This document shows positions 50,853 to 62,619 of a stretch of 64,000 bases of DNA, piece after piece. The notes under the pieces were generated by a model that saw only the letters and a program-made list of their open reading frames with translations, ran no database searches and was not told the DNA's origin. Where the stretch lies: contig AP017959.1 of the NCBI GenBank assembly GCA_002356215.1, positions 434,001-498,000 on the forward strand, in the 5' to 3' direction. Position 1 is the stretch's first letter. The number at the start of each line of letters is the position of its first letter. A program made the position numbers and the translations under genes. Source of the DNA: [Synechococcus] sp. NIES-970. GTDB lineage: Bacteria > Cyanobacteriota > Cyanobacteriia > Cyanobacteriales > MRBY01.

Positions 50853-53006
50853 ATGTCCTCAGCGAAAACCGCTAGCAAGCTCAAAACCGACCTCGACAAT
50901 CCACAATACTATTTTAATCGGGAACTCAGTTGGCTTGAGTTTAACCGTCGGGTTTTGAGCGAAGGCCTAGACGAACGCAACTTATTGCTGGAGCGTCTCA
51001 AATTTCTCGCTATTTTTAGTAGTAATCTCGACGAATTTTTTATGGTGCGGGTTGCGGGTCTGAAGCAGCAGGTTGAAGCCGGGGTCAGTAAATTATCCTT
51101 CGATGGGTGCAATCCGGCCGAACAACTCCAAGCTATTTATGAAGGCCTGAAACCTCTCGTACAGTTGCAGGACCAGCATTTTCAACACCAACTCAAGCCC
51201 CTCCTTGCCCAGGAAGGTATTTACATCGTTGATTATCTCGATCTCAACCGCGAACAACGCAACTATCTCCATGACTTTTACCAAGAGCATATTTTTCCTG
51301 TTTTAACGCCCTTGGCAGTTGATCCGAGTCACCCATTTCCCCACATTTCCAATCTCAGCCTCAACCTCGCCGTCGTGATTAAAGAACCTGAAGATGACCG
51401 GCAGGAGCGGTTTGCCCGGGTCAAAGTCCCCGGAAATTTTGCTCGTTTTGTGACATTGCCCGAGGAGCTTTGTTATTACCCAGATCAAGAAAAAGCAGTG
51501 TGGGTGGGTGTTCCCATTGAGCAGGTGATCGCCCACAATCTCGATACCCTTTTCCCGCAGATGAATATCCAGGAGTGCTATGCCTTCCGGGTGACGCGTA
51601 ATGCTTCTTTGTCAGTGGAAGAAGATGAAGCGGATGATCTGATGTTGGCCATTGAAGAGCAGCTCCACAAACGGCGTTTTAGCGGTTCTGTGGTGCGTTT
51701 GGAAATTCATCACTCCATGCCAGCAGATGTGCGACAAATGCTCATCAAAGAACTAGAACTCCAAGAAATTGATGTGTACGAAGTAGAGGGGTTGATGGGT
51801 CTTGATTCGCTCTTCACCTTTCTGGGCCTGCCCCTCAAGCATCTCAAGGATAAACCCTGGTCACCGACCGTACCCGCTTGGCTCGATGGGACAAAAAGTA
51901 ACCGCTCGACCGAAGACTTTGAGCCGGATTTTTTTGAGCTTATCCGCCAAGGCGATCGCCTCCTGCACCACCCTTACCATTCCTTTGCTTCAACGGTGCA
52001 GGCATTCATCACCCAAGCGGCCCACGATCCCGACGTGTTAGCGATCAAAATGACCCTCTATCGCACCTCCGGGGATTCCCCGATCATCCAAGCCCTAATC
52101 GCCGCTGCCCAAAATGGCAAGCAGGTGGCCGTGCTGGTAGAACTTAAGGCTCGCTTTGACGAAGAAAACAACATTAATTGGGCCCGTACCCTCGAGCAAA
52201 AAGGTGTCCATGTGGTCTATGGTTTAGCCGGCCTCAAAACCCACACCAAAATTGTCTTGGTAGTGCGCCAAGAGCAGAAGAAAATTCGTCGCTATATCCA
52301 TGTTGGTACGGGTAATTACAATCCCAAAACAGCCAGGCTCTACACAGATCTTGGCCTGTTGAGCTGTCGTGAAGATTTAGCCGCTGACTTGACAGAACTG
52401 TTTAACTTTTTGACGGGATATTCCAGGCAAAATACCTATCGGAAGTTACTGGTTGCCCCGGTTACGCTCCGGCCCCGGATGGTGGCGATGATTGAGCGGG
52501 AAATTGCCCATGTAAAAAAAGGCGGCAGTGGCCGGATTGTCGCTAAGATGAATTCCCTAGTAGACCTTGAGATGATCCAAACGCTCTATCGAGCGTCCCA
52601 GGCCGGGGTAGAAATAGATCTCATTATTCGCGGAATTTGCTGTCTTCGTCCTGGCGTTGAGGGTCTCAGCGAGAATATTCGTGTCACTAGCATCATTGGC
52701 CGCTTCCTAGAGCATTCTCGCATCTATTATTTCCAAAATGGAGGGAGCGAAGAAATGTACATTGGTAGTGCTGACTGGATGACCCGTAACCTCAGTCGCC
52801 GGGTAGAAGCGGTAACCCCCGTTGAAGACCCAAAGCTTATTGGGGATCTCAATGAAATTTTGGGAATTATGCTGTCGGACAACCGTCTTGCTTGGCAACT
52901 ACAGCCCGATGGTCGTTATCTCCAAAAGGAAAGTCATGCCGATGGACACAGTGATAACACCCATGACATTTTAATGCAGATGGCACTCCAGGAAAGTCTG
53001 GATTAG
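50853..53006 (+). CDS. ppk: Polyphosphate kinase 1
   Basis: Builds inorganic polyphosphate from ATP. The 717-residue protein starts with YFNRELSWLEFNRRVLSE (N domain). The two catalytic His regions are GLKTHTKIVLVVR near residue 460 (autophosphorylated His) and GRFLEHSRIYYFQNGG near 620. The phospholipase-D-like C domains are complete, ending NDNRLAW and QLQPDGRYL. The ATG at 50853 gives family length; the reading frame continues upstream with a Cys-rich stretch that does not fit. Confidence 0.96.
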   Translation: MSSAKTASKLKTDLDNPQYYFNRELSWLEFNRRVLSEGLDERNLLLERLKFLAIFSSNLDEFFMVRVAGLKQQVEAGVSKLSFDGCNPAEQLQAIYEGLKPLVQLQDQHFQHQLKPLLAQEGIYIVDYLDLNREQRNYLHDFYQEHIFPVLTPLAVDPSHPFPHISNLSLNLAVVIKEPEDDRQERFARVKVPGNFARFVTLPEELCYYPDQEKAVWVGVPIEQVIAHNLDTLFPQMNIQECYAFRVTRNASLSVEEDEADDLMLAIEEQLHKRRFSGSVVRLEIHHSMPADVRQMLIKELELQEIDVYEVEGLMGLDSLFTFLGLPLKHLKDKPWSPTVPAWLDGTKSNRSTEDFEPDFFELIRQGDRLLHHPYHSFASTVQAFITQAAHDPDVLAIKMTLYRTSGDSPIIQALIAAAQNGKQVAVLVELKARFDEENNINWARTLEQKGVHVVYGLAGLKTHTKIVLVVRQEQKKIRRYIHVGTGNYNPKTARLYTDLGLLSCREDLAADLTELFNFLTGYSRQNTYRKLLVAPVTLRPRMVAMIEREIAHVKKGGSGRIVAKMNSLVDLEMIQTLYRASQAGVEIDLIIRGICCLRPGVEGLSENIRVTSIIGRFLEHSRIYYFQNGGSEEMYIGSADWMTRNLSRRVEAVTPVEDPKLIGDLNEILGIMLSDNRLAWQLQPDGRYLQKESHADGHSDNTHDILMQMALQESLD

Positions 53007-53105
53007 GTCTGGCGTTATGTCTTGACCGATGGAGGCGAAAATCAAAGCGATCGCCTTACTGAGCTAATGCTGGGGAACCGCAACCTTTTGAGACGGATTC
53101 CCCTA

Positions 53106-53134
53106 CTGTCAAATAATGCAGACAAAAATACAAT
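53106..53134 (+). promoter_or_regulatory. Probable promoter of clpB
   Basis: CTGTCA (53106-53111), 17 bases, TACAAT (53129-53134), giving a start near 53141 and a leader of about 65 bases. No CIRCE element (TTAGCACTC-N9-GAGTGCTAA) is present, so HrcA control is not indicated. Confidence 0.45.
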
Positions 53135-53205
53135 ACGAAGTAAGTTCTAGGGTTTCTTTTTGGAGAAGCAATGGGGCTTTATTTTAATGATTATTGTTTT
53201 GTCCT

Positions 53206-55800
53206 ATGCAACCCACTAACCCGAATCAATTTACCGAAAAGGCTTGGCAGGCGATCGCCCAAACCCCCGATGTCGCCAAGCAGAATCAACAGCAGCAAAT
53301 CGAGTCTGAACACCTGATGCAGGCGCTATTAGAACAGGATGGTTTAGCAAAAAGTATTTTTACAAAAGCAGAAATTCCCCTAGGGAAACTCCGAGAAAAT
53401 ACGCTTGCTTTTATCACCCAGCAACCGAAGATCGCTCAACCCAGTGAATCAGTCTATCTCGGGCGTAGCTTAGATACCCTTTTAGACCGGGCTGAACAGC
53501 ATCGAAAATCCTTTGGAGATGACTTTATTTCTGTTGAACATTTAATTCTTAGCTATGCCAAAGATGACCGTTTTGGCAAAAATCTCTACAAAGAATTTGA
53601 CCTAACAGAAAATAAGCTCAAAACGATCATTACGCAAATTCGAGGCAACCAAAAGGTGAACGATCAAAATCCGGAAGGAAAATATGAATCCTTAGAAAAA
53701 TATGGCCGCGATTTAACAGATTTAGCCCGCCATGGGAAACTTGATCCGGTAATTGGCCGGGATGATGAAATTCGCCGCACCATTCAAATTCTCTCCCGCC
53801 GGACAAAAAATAATCCAGTCTTGATCGGGGAACCAGGGGTCGGCAAAACCGCGATCGCCGAAGGATTGGCCCAAAGAATTATTAATCGGGATGTGCCCGA
53901 ATCCCTAAAGGACCGGACCCTAATTGCCTTAGACATGGGGGCTTTGATTGCCGGGGCAAAATACCGGGGCGAATTTGAAGAACGTCTGAAAGCAGTACTC
54001 AAGGAAGTCACCGATTCTGAAGGGCAAATCATTCTCTTTATCGATGAAATCCACACCGTTGTTGGCGCTGGGGCAACCCAGGGGGCGATGGATGCCGGGA
54101 ACTTACTCAAGCCAATGTTGGCCCGGGGCGAGCTGCGTTGTATTGGGGCGACCACCCTCGATGAATACCGTAAGTATATTGAAAAAGATGCGGCCCTCGA
54201 ACGGCGTTTCCAGTCGGTGCTGGTGAATGAACCCAATGTGGTTGATACCATTTCAATCCTGCGTGGCCTCAAGGAACGCTATGAACTACACCACGGCGTG
54301 AAAATTGCCGATACAGCCCTGGTTGCCGCCGCAATGCTCTCAAACCGCTACATCACCGACCGTTTTTTGCCCGATAAGGCGATCGACCTGGTCGATGAAG
54401 CCGCCGCTAAGCTGAAGATGGAGATCACTTCCAAGCCGGAAGAACTCGATGAAATTGACCGAAAAATTCTCCAATTGGAAATGGAAAAACTCTCCATTCA
54501 AAAAGAAAAAGATGAAGCCTCTTTGGAACGGCTTGCCAAACTAGAAAAAGAATTAGCTAACCTCAAAGAAGAACAATCTCAGCTCAATGCCCAATGGCAG
54601 TCTGAAAAAGAATTCATCGATAAAATTCGCTTCATCAAAGAGGAAATTGAGAAAACAAACCTAGAAATTCAGCAAGCAGAACGGGATTATGATCTCAATA
54701 AAGCAGCTGAATTACGTTACGGCAGACTAACAGAGCTCCAACAAAAAATCAAAGAAATTGAAGCTAACTTGGCGACCCAACAAATCACAGGAGAATCACT
54801 CCTACGGGAAGAAGTGATTGAATCAGATATCGCTGAAATTATCTCTAAATGGACGGGAATTCCGATCAGTAAGCTGATCGAGTCAGAAAAAGAAAAACTT
54901 CTTCACCTGGAAGCTGAACTCCACCGCCGGGTCGTTGGCCAAGATGAAGCCGTTACCGCTGTCGCCGAAGCAGTCCAGCGATCGCGCGCCGGACTGGCTG
55001 ATCCCAACCGTCCCACCGCCAGTTTTATTTTCTTGGGGCCGACGGGGGTCGGAAAAACAGAACTTGCTAAAGCCCTGGCCCAATTTCTCTTTGATACCGA
55101 GGAAGCAATCGTTCGCATTGACATGTCAGAATACATGGAAAAACATGCAGTATCTCGGCTTTTAGGCGCACCGCCTGGATATGTGGGCTACGAAGAGGGA
55201 GGCCAGCTGACGGAAGCGATTCGTCGTCGCCCCTACTCAGTGATTCTTTTTGATGAGATCGAAAAAGCCCATGGCGACGTTTTTAATGTGATGCTGCAAA
55301 TCTTGGATGATGGTCGCCTCACGGATTCCCAGGGACGAACGGTGGACTTTAAAAATACGGTAATCATCATGACCAGTAACATCGGTTCCCAATTTATCCT
55401 CGATCTTGCTGGGGACGACAGCCGCTATGAGGAAATGCGGGGTCGGGTGATGGAGGCGATGAATGTCAATTTCCGGCCAGAATTCCTAAACCGCATCGAT
55501 GAACTCATTATTTTCCACGGCCTGCAAAAAGAGCAGCTGCGCTCTATTGTCCAACTCCAGATTAGACGCTTGGCAGAACGGCTTGCAGAACAAAAAATTA
55601 ACATCCAATTCACCCCAGAAGCCTATGATTTCATTGCAGAGGTGGGTTACAACCCTGTTTATGGGGCTAGACCGCTAAAGCGGGCTGTTCAAAAATATGT
55701 GGAAACGGCGATCGCCAAAGGTATTCTGAAAGGCGAATTCAAAGGAGGGGAAACAATCAATGTCCAAGTTAAAGATGAACGACTGACATTTACCAAGTAA
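53206..55800 (+). CDS. clpB: ATP-dependent disaggregating chaperone ClpB
   Basis: Hsp104-type AAA+ chaperone that, with DnaK, rescues aggregated proteins. The 864-residue protein has a Clp N domain (1-145), first AAA module with Walker [14 protein letters not shown] near 205 and Walker [15 protein letters not shown] near 277, a coiled-coil middle domain (about 405-525), and second AAA module with [14 protein letters not shown] near 605 and [11 protein letters not shown] near 675. It ends [19 protein letters not shown]. The long middle domain excludes ClpC and ClpA. The ATG at 53206 is preferred over 53194. Confidence 0.96.
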
Positions 55801-55853
55801 AGCCCTCCCCACCGAGCCATGAGAGAACGCGGCTTTTTACCCCTGAATTAAAC

Positions 55854-55905
55854 GCCCAGAACCCTGTGTTAGTCACTCAGCAGTGATTAGCACAGGGTTC
55901 TGGGC
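55854..55905. repeat. Long hairpin after clpB (24-base-pair stem)
   Basis: Arms 55854-55877 and 55882-55905 pair along their full length with only two G-T pairs and a CAGC loop. The arm begins GCCCAGAACCCTGTG. It lies between convergent clpB and the beta-propeller gene. There is no T run on either strand, so it is not a classical terminator; it might protect 3' ends or be a miniature mobile repeat. Confidence 0.7.
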
Positions 55906-55922
55906 ATCGCTAGGTCATAAAC

Positions 55923-57398
55923 TTAAGGGGCCATCACGTTGAGATTAATCAAACTCATGGCATTGCCTTCAGGATTAGACACAACAACTTGATTAGTCAT
56001 CGGGATAAATTCAATCCCTTCTGGCTCGAATCCCGCTTCTTGATCTGCCCGAATTACTGTAGGATTAAGGATTACTGTGTCAAGTAGTTGAATATTGGCC
56101 GGGTCAGAAATGTCATGGATGGTCATGGCATCGGAACGCTCGATCGCCACAAATGCGAGGGTACGACCATCTACGACCCCAAGAGAAACAACCTCCGGCT
56201 CTGGCCCTTTGCTGTTGCAGCGCTGTGGCAATCCTAAGGCCGTGATGCTTTCTTCGATGGAGTCACCACTGTCTCCTAAAAATTCTCCTGTGACCGCATC
56301 AAAAACACTAATACTCCGAGCGCCGTGGGGGCTAATGGGGATGCCTTCGTAGGACTGATTGTTGACATGGGTCAAATTGTCTTCGTCAGCGGTAACAAAG
56401 TAACGTCCGTCCATCGTCAAAGCCAAGCCATCAGGCTCACGGGCAGAGGTGAATTCTTGTCTGAGGGACAGATCATAGCTGCCAGAACGACAGCTTCCTT
56501 CCCCAGCTTTATCCTTGACCAGACCGAAACCTGTGCGGATGCCAACATCAAAGTTTTTCACTGAAAATGCATCGGCGGTTAGGCGACTGGGCAAGGGAGA
56601 AGGAATCTCAAGACGTGCGACGGCATTGTTTTCTTGCAGTGTGGCAAGAACAAAAGTGCTGTCTGCTGCAATACGAACCGTTTCGGGTTGTGGGTCGTGG
56701 GGAAAAAAGGGAAGATTGTCAGGGGGAATGGGCACTTCGACTTGGGTCATGCGAGTCGGCCCATTCCGTAAGTCAATGATCGAAATAGTACCGGGACGAT
56801 TATCAAGGTTGGTCAAATCTTCTTCGTTTTCTTCGTCTTCATTGGCGACTGCTGCAAATTGACCATTGGGGGCGATCGCCACCGAGTCTGGCCCACGGCC
56901 TACGGTCACTTGGCCAATTGGTTCAAGGCTCGGGAGGGCAATGGCGACGACCTTGCCGGGAACCTCGTCAAATGTAGCGACATTGGCCTCATCTGAATCT
57001 TTAACGCCTAAAAGTGCAAAAGTACCATCTGGGCTGATTGCTACCCCAGTCAATTCGGCCTCTGTTGAACCTGCGGGAAAAAACTCATCGGTCAAAGTCC
57101 AGGTTCCTTGGACGCTTAGGGTATCGTCCTCAATGGCGACTAGAGTGGCCGTATCACTACCAACTACGAGGGCATGGCGACCGTCTTTAGCAACAGCCAA
57201 CATTTCTGCTCCGGCCAGATCTGTGAGTGTGAAGACGACTTCTCCTTTGATAGTCGCATTTTGGGCGATCGCCTGGGGCACTACTGCGCTAAACGGCAGA
57301 TAGGCAAGGGCAGATAACAAGGCCAGCTTAAGGCCAGCTTGGAGCTTGGGCTTCACCATTGATGCCGATGCGCTTTTTACACCACGATTCAGATTCAT
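55923..57398 (-). CDS. Secreted beta-propeller protein (choice-of-anchor I type)
   Basis: Protein of 491 residues. A signal peptide ends near AIAQNATI (about residue 46). The rest is a series of beta-propeller blades with recurring GVAISPDGTFALLGV, SVAIAPNGQFAAVANEDEE and LALTMDGRYFVTADEDN units. The aspartate/glutamate-rich loops (DEENEEDLTNLDNRPGT) suit calcium binding. It resembles the choice-of-anchor I family, some members of which are annotated as phosphatase-related surface proteins; I cannot confirm activity. An internal ATG at codon 14 is an alternative start. Confidence 0.7.
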   Translation of the reverse strand: MNLNRGVKSASASMVKPKLQAGLKLALLSALAYLPFSAVVPQAIAQNATIKGEVVFTLTDLAGAEMLAVAKDGRHALVVGSDTATLVAIEDDTLSVQGTWTLTDEFFPAGSTEAELTGVAISPDGTFALLGVKDSDEANVATFDEVPGKVVAIALPSLEPIGQVTVGRGPDSVAIAPNGQFAAVANEDEENEEDLTNLDNRPGTISIIDLRNGPTRMTQVEVPIPPDNLPFFPHDPQPETVRIAADSTFVLATLQENNAVARLEIPSPLPSRLTADAFSVKNFDVGIRTGFGLVKDKAGEGSCRSGSYDLSLRQEFTSAREPDGLALTMDGRYFVTADEDNLTHVNNQSYEGIPISPHGARSISVFDAVTGEFLGDSGDSIEESITALGLPQRCNSKGPEPEVVSLGVVDGRTLAFVAIERSDAMTIHDISDPANIQLLDTVILNPTVIRADQEAGFEPEGIEFIPMTNQVVVSNPEGNAMSLINLNVMAP

Positions 57399-57655
57399 TA
57401 CTTAATATCTATTTGAGCTAAAACCACAGCCCCAACCATACAATGTAGCTAGAGTTTCTCGAGTTAAAAAAAGGCTAAGCAAAGTTTAATTTCAGATTTT
57501 TTAAGGGTTATTTTTTGATGATTTCATCACTACTTTGCAGCGAAATCAATTTTTCCCTGGAATAAAACCAAAGCAATTGACACAATAAAATTAAAGCGAT
57601 GTCATGTGATGGATACTCTATCTAACGGCAACTTTATTGAAAGATTGGCGATGTA
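57399..57655. other. AT-rich promoter region of the beta-propeller gene
   Basis: No ORF is visible. On the minus strand ATTAAACT and CTTAGCCT start 11 bases apart (within 57470-57495), which loosely recalls the PhoB-type PHO box repeats of cyanobacteria; a third unit is not clear. The stretch ends where the 231-base duplicated segment begins. Confidence 0.3.
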
Positions 57656-57886
57656 GTTGCTTTCTCTTTTCTTTCTCCGGCACAATAGGAAACCGTGTAG
57701 TTTCGTCAGGATAGAGAAACAATGGCCAGCCAGTGGGAAAATTTTCTGAAAAATCTAGGGAACTGGCGTGGTTCCTTTGCGGGGGTGACCCTAGAGGGGG
57801 AGATCATGACCGAAGTCCCCTCTATCTTGACCCTCTCGTTGGTCAATGGCGATCGCGATAAAGTGCTGTTTACCCTGCGACGCTTT
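57656..57886 (+). repeat. 231-base direct repeat, copy 1
   Basis: Matches 60675-60905 with about five differences (near 98 percent identity) at a constant offset of 3019 bases. It carries the leader plus the first 55 codons of the DUF3598-like gene. Similarity stops sharply at 57886. Confidence 0.9.
57722..57886 (+). pseudogene. Truncated copy of the DUF3598-like gene
   Basis: The first 55 codons (from MASQWENFLKNLGNWRGSF) are almost identical to the full-length gene at 60741, with one replaced residue (Ile for Ser in EGEIMTEV). After FTLRRF the sequence switches to unrelated DNA; the frame stays open to 58036 but no longer resembles the family. The leader and start region are intact, so a short chimeric peptide could still be made. 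Confidence 0.85.
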
Positions 57887-57906
57887 GGTGGGCATTACCG
57901 TAGGAC

Positions 57907-58065
57907 ATGGCTTTCATCATTACTTCCTGTAGAAAAAGTTGTACAACTAAAATCATCGGTCAAATGGAATGGGCGATCGCCAAAGGCATCCTCAAGGGTG
58001 AGTTTAAGTCAGGTAGGTCAATTACCGTTGATGTGAAGGATGAAAGACTCGTTTTCCACATCTAA
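57907..58065 (+). pseudogene. Fragment encoding the C-terminus of a ClpB paralogue
   Basis: In this frame the last 30 residues read [11 protein letters not shown], then KSGRSITVDVKDERLVFHI and a stop. The clpB gene at 53206 ends [11 protein letters not shown], then [19 protein letters not shown]. The protein match is obvious, but the DNA differs at roughly a third of positions, so this piece came from another ClpB gene and is not a fresh copy of the neighbour. Similarity covers only 57973-58065; the upstream 22 codons of the 52-residue frame are unrelated. Confidence 0.75.
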
Positions 58066-58213
58066 GGACAGGCTAATCATCACAGAATCTCTAGGGGGGT
58101 TCCGTAGAGCACCTCCTTCGGGCTTAGCTAGCGAAATAGCCAGATTTGGTTTTTGCAAGGAAGATTCATTATGATTTTCGTTGTGTGAGCTCTGTAGAAA
58201 TGTAAGAAATTTT

Positions 58214-58930
58214 ATGTATGTTTTAATTGGTGGTGCAGGAATGATCGGATTAGGGCTTGCCCAACGGCTTTTAGAGCTCGGGCATACCATTGCGATTATT
58301 GATGTTGACCCATTGGCCTGCCGCTTTGCCCGGGAAAAGATCGGTGTGATGGCTTTTGAAGGAAGCACCGTTAACACAAACGTATTGCTTGAAGCAGGAA
58401 TTCGACAGGCTGATGCCGTTGTCGCAGCGCTCAGAGATGATGCTTTGAATTTGGCCCTGATCACCCTGTCTCGAAGCTACGGCATTTCCCACATCTTAGT
58501 GCGTATGCGCGATCGCGAATTCCTTGAAGCCTATCGCCTCGCCGGAGCTAGTCACATTATTAGTACAATTGACTTGTCTGTTGCCACAATGGCTAATGCG
58601 ATCGAGTATCCCGAAGTGGAATCAATGATGAACTTCGAACAAGGCCAAGTTGAAGTTTTGAAGCTCCCTATTTCCAGCGACTGTTATGCCACTGGTCGCA
58701 CCGTTGCTCAAATTGCCCAGGATCAACACTTTCCCACTGGTTCACTGATTATTGGTTACCAAAGCCATGCTCATGCTAGCCTCGAAATTCCCAATGGCAA
58801 TACAGTCCTAGAGTCAGGCTCAACAATCCTTGTAGTTACTCGTCCAGAATTTGTTAAATCCATGATTGATTATCTTGGTATTCAGGTTAATCATCGTCCA
58901 ACGATAGCAGTCTCTCATCCAAATCTTTGA
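58214..58930 (+). CDS. TrkA-N / RCK domain protein
   Basis: Protein of 238 residues. The N-terminal Rossmann domain has GGAGMIGLGLAQRL at 5-18 and the ribose-binding Asp at the end of strand 2 in AIIDVDPLACRFA. A C-terminal RCK_C domain lies at about 140-220. Such proteins gate K+ channels and Ktr/Trk transporters, or other cation carriers, in response to NAD(H) or ATP. It has no K+ pore gene nearby but is paired, tail to tail with a 44-base overlap, with a Na+/H+ antiporter gene, suggesting control of monovalent cations. It lies inside the interval flanked by the direct repeats. Confidence 0.85.
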   Translation: MYVLIGGAGMIGLGLAQRLLELGHTIAIIDVDPLACRFAREKIGVMAFEGSTVNTNVLLEAGIRQADAVVAALRDDALNLALITLSRSYGISHILVRMRDREFLEAYRLAGASHIISTIDLSVATMANAIEYPEVESMMNFEQGQVEVLKLPISSDCYATGRTVAQIAQDQHFPTGSLIIGYQSHAHASLEIPNGNTVLESGSTILVVTRPEFVKSMIDYLGIQVNHRPTIAVSHPNL

Positions 58931-60503
58931 CATATAGTTGCACTAAATCTTCCGGGACAATGCGTCTACGCAGAGCATCATTCACCGCACCTTTTTCTGC
59001 AAGAAATAGTTGTCGTCGAATCGTATCGAGTTGACTATGATTTCGGGCTGATTTATCTAACCGATTTTGGTTATATGTATCTCGTAAAACACGTTCTGAA
59101 ACGGCAATTTTTGCTTGATAGGAAGCCCAAAGTTCCTCATAAGCTGCTTTAGACAATATCCCTGATTTAAATAAATTTTTGAGTTCATCTTGGGCTGCTT
59201 TCGATGCAATCAGTTGAATTTGTAGTTTTCCGATCTCCTGAGTGACAGCAGAGCCATGACTAATTTTAAGTTTTTTGATTAACCAAGGTAAGGCTAGACC
59301 TTGGATCACTAAAGAAAATAAAACAGCACCAAATACAACTTCGATGATGAACTCTCGACCTGTTAATGTCAAAGGAATAGCAACAGCCAGGGCCATTGAT
59401 AGAGACCCCTTAACATTGCCTAATACCAAGACATGTTGCCATGGTAAGCGGATTGGGCGATCGATCCAGCGGAGCGTGCCTAGTAATGCATAAACCGAAA
59501 TAATTCGGGCTAACTGATAAGCGATAATCACTAAAACGATAGAAGGCAATGTTTGCCAAAGGGTTAGAGGATTGATTTCAATACCAATGAGCAGAAAAAT
59601 AAAAGTATTAACAATAAAACCCGCATATTGCCAAAAACTCATCAGGGTAATGCGATCCGATGCAGAATCACTTTGGGGAATACCAACGTTGCCAAACACC
59701 AGCCCCGCAATAACCACAGCTACTGCCCCGGAAACACCTAAAAGCTGGCCAATTTGAAATGTCCCTAATGCAAGAGCCACTGTCAGTAATAGACTACTGA
59801 GAGGATCTTGTAAGCGAATAAAAATAGGTAAACATAAATAACCTAAAACGCCTCCCAACAAGCCGCCACCCAGGGCAACAATCAGAATCTCTTGAATACC
59901 TTGGGCGACGGTAATGGTTCCTGTAGCATAGATAGCCAGCAATAAATTAAATGAAACTAGAGCAGCTGCATCATTGAATAATGTCTCCCCTTCAACAATA
60001 GTTGACAATCGAGAAGGGACTCGAATTTCTTTGAAAACAGCAATGATAGAAACAGTATCTGTATTTGCAAGGATAACCCCCACTAATAAAGCTGGAATCC
60101 AAGGAAGATTTAGAGTGAATTTTACGATGAATGCAATGATTCCTGAAGATAGAATGGCGCCTGGTCCTGCCAATAAAGCGATGGGTTTGATAGTGCTCCT
60201 TAGCCGACTGATATCTGTATTGATTGCTGCTTCAAAAATGAGAATAGGTAGAAAAAGATTGAGAACTAAGGATGGATCCAAACCAATGCGACGAGACAAG
60301 AAATCTGTAATTGGTAATCCTGCTAATACTAAACCTGTGACGTAGGAAATACGTAGTTTTTGAGTTACTAGAGCAACTGTTGTTGCAATCAATAATAGAA
60401 CGATGAGAATGATTACTAGCCCAGTAATATCTGCGCTTGCTTGATTACTAATCGTTGCAGGATTTTCTAGGAATGTTTGTTGTGCGAAAAACCAGATTAC
60501 CAA
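58887..60503 (-). CDS. Na+/H+ antiporter, CPA1 family (NhaP/NHE type)
   Basis: Protein of 538 residues with about twelve helices (1-400) and a hydrophilic C-terminal tail (400-538) with long helices. The ion site has the CPA1 ND pair in EGETLFNDAAALVSFNLLLA near residue 170 and the upstream LANTDTVSIIAVF near 145. It exports Na+ in exchange for H+, useful in saline or alkaline settings. The start is a TTG at 60503: GGAGG stands seven bases before it, and no ATG or GTG follows before the first helix. Confidence 0.9.
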   Translation of the reverse strand: MVIWFFAQQTFLENPATISNQASADITGLVIILIVLLLIATTVALVTQKLRISYVTGLVLAGLPITDFLSRRIGLDPSLVLNLFLPILIFEAAINTDISRLRSTIKPIALLAGPGAILSSGIIAFIVKFTLNLPWIPALLVGVILANTDTVSIIAVFKEIRVPSRLSTIVEGETLFNDAAALVSFNLLLAIYATGTITVAQGIQEILIVALGGGLLGGVLGYLCLPIFIRLQDPLSSLLLTVALALGTFQIGQLLGVSGAVAVVIAGLVFGNVGIPQSDSASDRITLMSFWQYAGFIVNTFIFLLIGIEINPLTLWQTLPSIVLVIIAYQLARIISVYALLGTLRWIDRPIRLPWQHVLVLGNVKGSLSMALAVAIPLTLTGREFIIEVVFGAVLFSLVIQGLALPWLIKKLKISHGSAVTQEIGKLQIQLIASKAAQDELKNLFKSGILSKAAYEELWASYQAKIAVSERVLRDTYNQNRLDKSARNHSQLDTIRRQLFLAEKGAVNDALRRRIVPEDLVQLYVKDLDERLLSLDDD

Positions 60504-60674
60504 GAATTACCTCCGCTGTAAAATAAAAATTTGAAAGCGAAATTTTGTTTGCTAGCACTTTACTTGTGAAATTCACAAGAGATTATAAGATATTTTTATA
60601 GCAAAGAATCCGCCTTACGATAATGTCTCCAGTCCAAAGGCGATTATGAAGCGCCTACGGAAAACTCCGTGGAG

Positions 60675-60905
60675 GTTGCTTTCCCTTTTCTTTCTCCGGC
60701 ACAATAGGAGACCGTGTAGTTTCGTCAGGATAGAGAAACAATGGCCAGCCAGTGGGAAAATTTTCTGAAAAATCTAGGGAACTGGCGCGGTTCCTTTGCG
60801 GGGGTGACCCTAGAGGGGGAGAGCATGACCGAAGTCCCCTCTATCTTGACCCTCTCGTTGGTCAATGGCGATCGCGATAAAGTGCTGTTTACCCTGCGAC
60901 GTTTT
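60675..60905 (+). repeat. 231-base direct repeat, copy 2
   Basis: Partner of 57656-57886. This copy leads into the complete DUF3598-like gene and so is likely the parent. A small hairpin-prone sequence (CCTACGGAAAACTCCGTGG, near 60655-60673) sits at its left boundary. Confidence 0.9.
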
Positions 60906-61574
60906 GAAAACGGCGGCTACGATAGTGAGCCGACCAGCAATATGTCCCAAGAATTTACGGGACTGGGACGGCACACAATGTTTTTTGATACGGGCTCTTT
61001 TTCCAAGGGCTCCATGTGCCTCTCGTCCATTTCGTCGTTTATTGCGGAATATGGATTCATCAAAGGCGATCGCCGCATGCGCATGGTGCAAATGTACGGT
61101 GATGCTTTTACTTTTAATAAATTGGTCTTTATTCGCGAATTTCGTGAAGGGAGCAATGCCCAAGAGCGTCCTTCATTAACGGTTGAGCAACTTTTGGGCA
61201 CTTGGGAGGCAGAATATTACGTTTACACCCCCGACCTCGATCCCCCCAAGGTTCACCAGAGCCGCCTGACCTTGAGCAAAGAGGGAGATTATCTCCAGCA
61301 AACCCTAGAACTAGAACATCAAACCATTACCTCTAAAGGACAGATCCAAGGCAAGACGATTCACTTTACAGAAGGCAGTGCGCCCCGTAATTTGGTACTC
61401 CTACCCGATGGTGCTTCGATCAATGTGCCGCCCCAACTGGCCCAACGACAGGCTTTTTTTGTGGAAGCGGGCTGGTTGGTGAACGACAATGAACGGCAAC
61501 GAATCATGCGCAATTACAACGACCGGGGCGAGTGGATTAGTTCGACATTGATTTTTGAGCGGCGAGTGGCATAG
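60741..61574 (+). CDS. DUF3598-like protein
   Basis: Protein of 277 residues without signal or membrane segments. It begins SQWENFLKNLGNWRGSFAGV, with a second beta-rich half (LLGTWEAEYYVYTPDLDPPK near 150; LPDGASINVPPQLAQ near 230; ending STLIFERRVA). The two halves look like lipocalin-type barrels, as in the DUF3598 family of cyanobacteria and plants, which is distantly related to the CpcS/CpeS phycobilin lyase fold. No enzymatic role is established. The stop overlaps the convergent CHAD gene by 38 bases. A truncated twin lies 3 kb upstream. Confidence 0.7.
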   Translation: MASQWENFLKNLGNWRGSFAGVTLEGESMTEVPSILTLSLVNGDRDKVLFTLRRFENGGYDSEPTSNMSQEFTGLGRHTMFFDTGSFSKGSMCLSSISSFIAEYGFIKGDRRMRMVQMYGDAFTFNKLVFIREFREGSNAQERPSLTVEQLLGTWEAEYYVYTPDLDPPKVHQSRLTLSKEGDYLQQTLELEHQTITSKGQIQGKTIHFTEGSAPRNLVLLPDGASINVPPQLAQRQAFFVEAGWLVNDNERQRIMRNYNDRGEWISSTLIFERRVA

Positions 61575-62514
61575 ATTTCGGTTGACAAAGGGTCTGGTGG
61601 AGCTGGTAGCGATATTGAGGCTGTAAAAATTGGTGCTGGAGTTTTGTCCAATGATGCCAAGTTTCGTGGCGATTATCATGGAAAATTTGACAGAGGGTCG
61701 GCAGTTCCTGGTGGAACATTTTTCCGAGGGCTTTTTCGAGGAATGCTTGGAGTACGGCATCGTCTTGGAGCAGGCCGATTAGAGTCTGGGCTTTTTTGAT
61801 TTTTTGGAGTGCCTCGCCATACTCAGAACCATAAAAAGGGGTAAAAATTTCCATGGTGTAGCGCGATCGCTTGGCTGCTTTACGGAGATCATGGATAACC
61901 GGGCTCTGGGTTGCAAACAGTTCATCTAGGTGCTTTCTGGGGAGTTTTTTGGGGCTGTAGCCGATCCACCAGCCGGGATGGAGCAGTAGTGCACTCAGTT
62001 GGGGCAAAAGTAAGTCTGGCAAAATAAGGTGAATCTCAACCGAGGCGATCGCCTGATATTGAGGTTGCTCAAGCCAGTGACGACAGGTATTTTTAAATTG
62101 GCCATAGATTTCAGACGCAAGGAATTGTCGGACTTTTTCGAGTTGCTTTTCCCGTTGCTTCGTCAATTTTTTCAGGGCTAGCCCTAGGTAATCCACTTCA
62201 ATAGCCGGTAGTTGGGGTAAATATCGCGCCGCCAGGGTCATCCCCATCACGTCTAAATCCCGCAATTGCCCTAAAATGCGGCCATAGCGACCGACCTGTT
62301 GCGGGGCGATCGCCCTGGGTACCATGAGAGCTGGCGCTAACCCCAACAACACACTGCGTAACCGCCGCATTCCCACCCGCATTTGGTGTAGTTCTTCCGG
62401 GTCACGGTCTGCCAAAACGCCCGCTTCATGGCTGAGGATCACCTGATAATGTTTGGCGATCGCCTGGTGTGCCCAATCGCCAAATGTGTGTACCTGGGGC
62501 AGAGGAACAACCAT
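61537..62514 (-). CDS. CHAD domain protein
   Basis: Protein of 325 residues made of helices with conserved His and basic residues: DPEELHQMRVGMRRLRSVL near residue 40, LRDLDVMGMTLAARY near 90, and IHDLRKAAKRSRYTMEIF near 205. CHAD domains bind inorganic polyphosphate through these residues and are often linked to CYTH triphosphatases; here it stands alone. ppk lies about 9 kb away, too far to claim an operon. Its 3' end overlaps the convergent DUF3598-like gene. Confidence 0.88.
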   Translation of the reverse strand: MVVPLPQVHTFGDWAHQAIAKHYQVILSHEAGVLADRDPEELHQMRVGMRRLRSVLLGLAPALMVPRAIAPQQVGRYGRILGQLRDLDVMGMTLAARYLPQLPAIEVDYLGLALKKLTKQREKQLEKVRQFLASEIYGQFKNTCRHWLEQPQYQAIASVEIHLILPDLLLPQLSALLLHPGWWIGYSPKKLPRKHLDELFATQSPVIHDLRKAAKRSRYTMEIFTPFYGSEYGEALQKIKKAQTLIGLLQDDAVLQAFLEKALGKMFHQELPTLCQIFHDNRHETWHHWTKLQHQFLQPQYRYQLHQTLCQPKSMPLAAQKSMSN

Positions 62515-62619
62515 AATTTATCGACTCATCAACATCACTCTTTCGATCTTAAAAGCCACTATTTTAAATACTGATTAAGGACACACAGAGCTTAACGATT
62601 GTTTGTGATTCAAAATCCG

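Follow-up and report, generated by a model that had tools for sequence, protein, structure and literature searches.

Islands that use the 3' end of a gene as their entry site and bring a replacement end leave the target gene whole and the displaced tail downstream. The locus described here is similar, with a whole clpB and what appears to be a displaced tail downstream, but differs in that no integrase came to light in either gene of the insert. In homology-facilitated illegitimate recombination, as presented in the excerpts of PMC3240628 and PMC5361080 used here, incoming DNA pairs at one homologous end and is joined at the other through a few shared bases; our locus shares these traits but differs from that process in that the same gene end was struck repeatedly and that the short word was HIP1. 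According to the portion of PMC3240628 used, incoming DNA with one homologous end mostly left the anchor duplicated in part in Escherichia coli (PCR, 56 of 60 clones), and the duplications measured 109-950 bp in the 14 sequenced clones. The likeness to such single-crossover integration is that an anchor a few hundred bases long is duplicated next to foreign DNA, whereas the present case is natural, has several layers and comes with no donor order found. Displaced genes left behind, as at our locus, are also part of what has been proposed for Vibrio immunity genes in the excerpt of PMC5361080. As for HIP1, its function is unsettled in the part of PMC4390886 used, and the part of PMC9239245 used places it near an inversion and brings it forward as support for plasmid fusion. 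The recombination associated with HIP1 in these excerpts (including Akiyama 1998, cited there) resembles ours in having GGCGATCGCC at the joint, but it concerns plasmids and one inversion, in contrast with a chromosomal clpB locus in several species here.

The window, that is, the whole stretch of 64,000 nucleotides analysed and the reference for all coordinates unless another locus is named, corresponds to positions 434,001-498,000 (forward strand) of contig AP017959.1 in assembly GCA_002356215.1 of [Synechococcus] sp. NIES-970, a marine cyanobacterium whose genus we take to be that of Synechococcus PCC 7002. The genus sample consisted of six genomes, G000 to G005, G000 being the genome of the window and G002 that of Picosynechococcus sp. 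PCC 7117. Features of the locus are collected in Table 1.

Table 1. Position of the features around the duplicated BFA1 start, in window coordinates.
Feature	Position	Strand	Remarks
clpB, intact	53194..55800	+	868-aa ORF; Pfam ClpB_D2-small, AAA_2, Clp_N
Present clpB tail, begins at HIP1 decamer	55707..55800	+	Identity comparison over 87 nt; discordant
Choice-of-anchor I domain protein	55923..57398	-	PF22494; syntenic in PCC 7117
Repeat copy 1, truncated BFA1 stump (leader and first ~55 codons)	57656..57887	+	DUF3598_N on residues 1-55
Joint TTTG, common to BFA1 and yefM	57884..57887		G001 yefM used as stand-in
YefM-like antitoxin gene, 5' end and its upstream	57888..57971	-	Start at 57917, MKAMSYGNAHQ
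Joint, HIP1 decamer GGCGATCGCC	57972..57981		In G001 present upstream of yefM and in clpB tail
Orphan clpB tail, 30 codons and stop	57972..58065	+	G001-like, 87% over 87 nt
TrkA-N/TrkA-C protein	58181..58930	+	PF02254, PF02080; likely start 58214
Na+/H+ antiporter (Na_H_Exchanger)	58887..60503	-	PF00999, E=1.5e-64; 44-bp overlap with TrkA gene
Repeat copy 2, leader and start of intact BFA1-like gene	60675..60906	+	Repeat alignment
Intact BFA1-like gene, 277 aa	60741..61574	+	PF12204 and PF21053; 94% in G002, 92% in G001

The direct repeat extended over 232 bp with 98% identity and 5 mismatches, practically as in the initial annotation (231 bases, about five mismatches), and a search of the own assembly with positions 57600-58230 returned only the two repeat sites. 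The DUF3598-like gene displayed the Pfam domains PF12204 (DUF3598_N) and PF21053 (BFA1_C), on which the family name BFA1-like, a sequence-based label, is founded; a putative role in ATP synthase assembly in cyanobacteria would follow from this name. Relatives of the gene occurred in 54 of 60 genomes, its own included. Copy 1 is a stump inside a 104-aa chimeric ORF whereas copy 2 opens the intact gene, and the DUF3598_N match of the stump agrees with the earlier description of the repeat as the leader and first 55 codons or so. The abrupt end of copy 1, followed within 90 bases by a ClpB-type tail, was likewise found as described (BFA1 homology ends after 57887 and the clpB piece begins 85 bases further), and Pfam confirmed the TrkA-N protein and the Na+/H+ antiporter between the copies. 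Three of the repeat differences look derived in copy 1 and two in copy 2, a split that makes the ongoing gene conversion suggested at that stage unnecessary. The leader of the stump may transcribe toward TrkA; the BFA1 leader did not appear in the list of the promoter scan, and its -35/-10 pair is our own reading. A terminator-like hairpin (55854-55905, 24 bp, 92% complementary) sits between the convergent clpB and choice-of-anchor genes.

The gene order in PCC 7117 was clpB, the choice-of-anchor gene, one BFA1 and a CHAD gene, with no transport genes there. When the locus was collapsed in silico (55001-57655 joined to 60675-62600), it aligned with PCC 7117 unbroken through the seam, over 3637 columns and with 77% identity. 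This relative, having a single intact DUF3598-like gene and no transport pair, is of the kind that the initial annotation had proposed to look for; the claim of a rearrangement in this lineage is likewise supported. The stretch separating clpB from BFA1 held YoeB, YefM and a type IIG restriction-methylase in G001, and the choice-of-anchor gene had no match in the 16-kb locus of this genome; in G003 it held a DUF5615 gene, an orphan clpB tail and a Uma2 gene, part of this stretch reading N. clpB was thus near BFA1 in four of the six genus genomes (G000-G003), with four different contents, while in G004 and G005 the two genes lay apart, elsewhere on the chromosome or on different contigs. A 112-aa frame (L034, 9262-9600) adjoining the restriction-methylase of G001 may be its split-off start. 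Upstream of clpB, in the region 53006-53194, synteny with G001 and G002 ends at 53071.

The unbroken alignment with PCC 7117 would fit a scenario in which the transport pair was inserted into a locus like that of PCC 7117: a fragment or circle carrying the yefM piece, the clpB tail, the transport module and a BFA1 start would have entered by one crossover in BFA1, thereby duplicating this anchor. The size of the duplication fits the values in the portion of PMC3240628 used, and close relatives of the antiporter were absent from the other five genus genomes, in which the best match (58%) was a shared older paralogue. However, such an insertion leaves unexplained both the discordant tail of the intact clpB and the recurrent order of toxin-antitoxin genes and orphan tails in relatives (see below), and we regard it as possible but rather doubtful.

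The convergent TrkA and antiporter genes overlap at their ends by 44 bp (58887-58930). The TrkA start is likely at 58214, since DNA similarity begins at 58212-58214 in seven of eight loci; for the remaining one (L085) the similarity falls into three pieces, of which one begins at 58214. Among the matches listed, the nearest sampled relatives of the cargo came from family f8, with identities of 82% (antiporter) and 87% (TrkA), and the antiporter was 82% identical to its G012 homologue. An antiporter match of near-full length and at least 70% was present in 28 other genomes (among the matches listed, the partial one of G301 left out); of these, 24 had TrkA adjacent and convergent and 23 showed overlapping ends; only the best 7 candidates were scored in each of the four exceptions (G058, G068, G168, and G196), which were without adjacent convergent TrkA. 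In G109 (L085, 1744-2981), the shared 3' overlap of both genes is present three times in tandem. The G+C content of the cargo was 42% vs. 49% for the window. Plasmid records gave no DNA match to 57600-61100, and their antiporter matches (298 records) were all below 60% identity. For 58060-58213 and 60504-60680, no source was found in the own genome beyond two short weak matches.

Clean direct repeats could also arise through insertion by a transposon or an integrase, or through an assembly artefact. Nevertheless, in both genes of the insert Pfam named only TrkA-type (NAD-binding) and antiporter domains, with no transposase or integrase, and no terminal inverted repeats were found at the insert edges; these results do not support a transposon as the cause of the target duplication that had been put forward. 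Five differences between the copies, and outer contexts that both match PCC 7117, argue against an artefact. Both explanations are considered highly improbable.

The 84 bases following the stump (57888-57971) were 74% identical over 62 bp to yefM of G001, a gene assigned to PhdYeFM_antitox, and the predicted starts were alike (MKAMSYGNAHQ in the window vs. MKAISYTNARQ in G001). The piece scored 48, compared with at most 33 in 1000 dinucleotide shuffles (target, the 4.1-kb cargo of G001). As the same bases scored 53 at an unrelated place of G122 among 388 genomes, naming the piece YefM leans also on start codon, frame and context. With E<=0.01, matches to the piece were obtained in 21 of the 388 genomes, own included; of the 20 other matches, five including that of G001 were checked, and no recognisable yefM gene was present at L095, which ranked above G001 in score, nor at L097-L099. 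G001 presented the order clpB-YoeB-YefM-HIP1 and holds HIP1 twice, once upstream of yefM and once within the clpB tail, while TTTG is common to the BFA1 stump and yefM at the left joint, taking G001 yefM as stand-in parent. Judged from sequence, the stretch between the repeat copies is a mosaic of a yefM start, an orphan clpB tail and the TrkA/antiporter module. The initial annotation had overlooked the yefM piece and the HIP1 word at its joint, as well as the recurrence of orphan clpB tails in relatives.

A short piece placed between two microhomologies is also what replication-based template switching at TTTG and HIP1 would leave, building the mosaic in one step. However, only a distant yefM (28%) exists elsewhere in the own genome, and the orphan tails of relatives would go unexplained, so that this mechanism seems unlikely.

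The orphan tail of the window, compared over 87 nt, was closest to the clpB tail of G001 (87%), followed by G002 (75%) and G003-G005 (63-69%), with 64% identity to the present tail of its own clpB. Conversely, the present tail was closest to G004 (82%), followed by G003 and G005 (77-78%), G002 (74%), and G001 (66%). This tail was the most discordant of 601 overlapping windows along clpB; the tails of G001 and G002, taken as controls, ranked 275 and 140, respectively. The discordance is weakened by the shortness (87 nt) and fast variation of the clpB tail, in which change is fastest after base 30, a part in which G001 and G002 are less alike as well (74%). On these comparisons, the orphan may well be the older tail of the lineage and the present clpB tail the one brought in. 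The initial annotation had proposed to search for the matching clpB and had considered a tandem duplication: an intact clpB does lie in the window, but the tail piece, at 64% identity, is not a copy of it. A tandem duplication within this genome followed by deletions, for which the direct repeat and the nearby clpB would speak, fits poorly with an orphan that resembles G001 far more than its own tail and with the absence of a close source for the module or yefM elsewhere in the genome; we give it very little credit.

Searches with clpB (tblastn) revealed five orphan clpB tails in four of the six genus genomes (one each in G000, G003 and G005, and two in G004), each downstream of clpB and behind different cargo, and none in the loci of G001 or G002. 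The cargo between clpB and the orphan was a FitA-like antitoxin with a PIN toxin in G005 and the DUF5615 gene in G003; in G004, an aromatic amino acid lyase preceded the first orphan and a small ORF the second. Similar small ORFs without Pfam match adjoin orphan tails in G004 (L107, 10547-10744) and G005 (L108, 8062-8337); they end in QSGEVLLLSAQ and KSGEILLLSAQ, respectively, the former directly at HIP1. A search with a 35-aa peptide gave matches in 5 of 60 genomes (G000, G003, G004, G005, and G050) at E<=1e-5 in frames of <60 codons, those in longer frames (179 and 223 codons; G034 and G053) being left out.

In all five genus orphans the start lies no more than 8 bases from the HIP1 codon of clpB (GGCGATCGCC), the left edges being at -8 (G000, with two mismatches within the first seven bases), +3 (G003), -5 and -1 (G004), and -1 (G005) with respect to its GCG. 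The HIP1 octamer was intact at the edge in four of them; the G003 orphan begins inside it, with the first bases lost. A longer orphan tail would have been detected, because the last 60 bases of intact clpB upstream of the cut are well conserved between genomes (78-95%). The left flanks of the orphans were unrelated beyond chance (1 of 50 comparisons at <=2 of 500 shuffles). The 3' flanks of the second G004 orphan and the G005 orphan, T-rich in sequence, were both similar to the one that follows intact clpB in G003 (in each case 0 of 500 shuffles, among 50 comparisons), which fits displaced clpB ends. The orphans of G003-G005 may be partly of common ancestry. A degraded orphan was sought after the yefM HIP1 of G001 and none was convincing: the shuffle count, out of 1000, was 4 with the tail of G001 itself and ranged from 27 to 287 with four others. 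Outside the genus, in G050 (L110, 6149-6772), the clpB tail and its 3' flank were duplicated over ~350 bp around a 135-aa ORF, the orphan lying ~0.7 kb past the clpB stop; its homology sets in ~48 bases ahead of the HIP1 codon and continues to 305 bases past it. Since this edge is not at HIP1, the word is not needed for such clpB-tail events. The full order of the locus, whose conservation in distant cyanobacteria would by the initial annotation have spoken against a recent rearrangement, was not found there among the genomes searched; the clpB fragment alone recurs more widely, which speaks against a one-off.

The explanation that we prefer, with a probability of roughly one half, is that two alternative versions of the stretch downstream of clpB were fused in this locus, through DNA of relatives anchored in clpB and joined at short words. 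The left half (clpB, choice-of-anchor gene, BFA1 start) has the order of PCC 7117, whereas the right half (yefM start, HIP1, clpB tail, cargo, BFA1) resembles G003 and G005 in having a toxin-antitoxin type gene followed by an orphan clpB tail. In a first step, clpB-locus DNA from another cell would pair with the resident clpB by homology, and the far end of the donor, within cargo, would join resident clpB at the shared HIP1 decamer, 30 codons before the stop; clpB would stay whole with the donor tail, the old one being displaced as an orphan. Later, a similar piece reaching from clpB to about codon 55 of BFA1 would enter by homology at one end and by a TTTG joint inside yefM at the other, leaving two BFA1 starts and a yefM scrap, with BFA1 kept intact. 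We infer that the version with the choice-of-anchor gene and BFA1 was joined at TTTG to the version with the toxin-antitoxin and transporter genes. Both ingredients of homology-facilitated illegitimate recombination, a homologous anchor (clpB or BFA1) and short shared bases (TTTG, HIP1), were present. With PCC 7117 for comparison no recipient DNA is missing; a G001-like recipient would have given up yoeB and the greater part of yefM. Neither postulated donor order appeared in any of the genomes searched, which counts against this reading. A Competence-family protein (PF03772) was found in all six genus genomes, which gives slight backing to natural uptake, the family also matching E. coli among the controls.

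A broader and more tentative proposal, to which we assign less weight than to the fusion itself, is that the HIP1 decamer near the end of clpB acts as a recurrent exchange point of the genus, cargo entering by clpB homology and a HIP1-to-HIP1 joint that gives clpB a new tail and orphans the old one, and that HIP1 may serve genome-wide as a joining word for gene uptake. This idea is weakened by the edge of the G050 orphan and by the break at 53071, where HIP1 lies 24 bp away here and is absent in G001 and G002. The window contained 82 HIP1 decamers, one per 780 bp (~1.3% of bases), and HIP1 may be used simply as the commonest shared word; a preference for it at joints is suggestive. The locus shows how a cell can gain cargo beside clpB and BFA1, losing neither gene, and the five orphan ends, cut at HIP1 and with unrelated left flanks, constitute suggestive natural evidence for a role of HIP1 in DNA joining.
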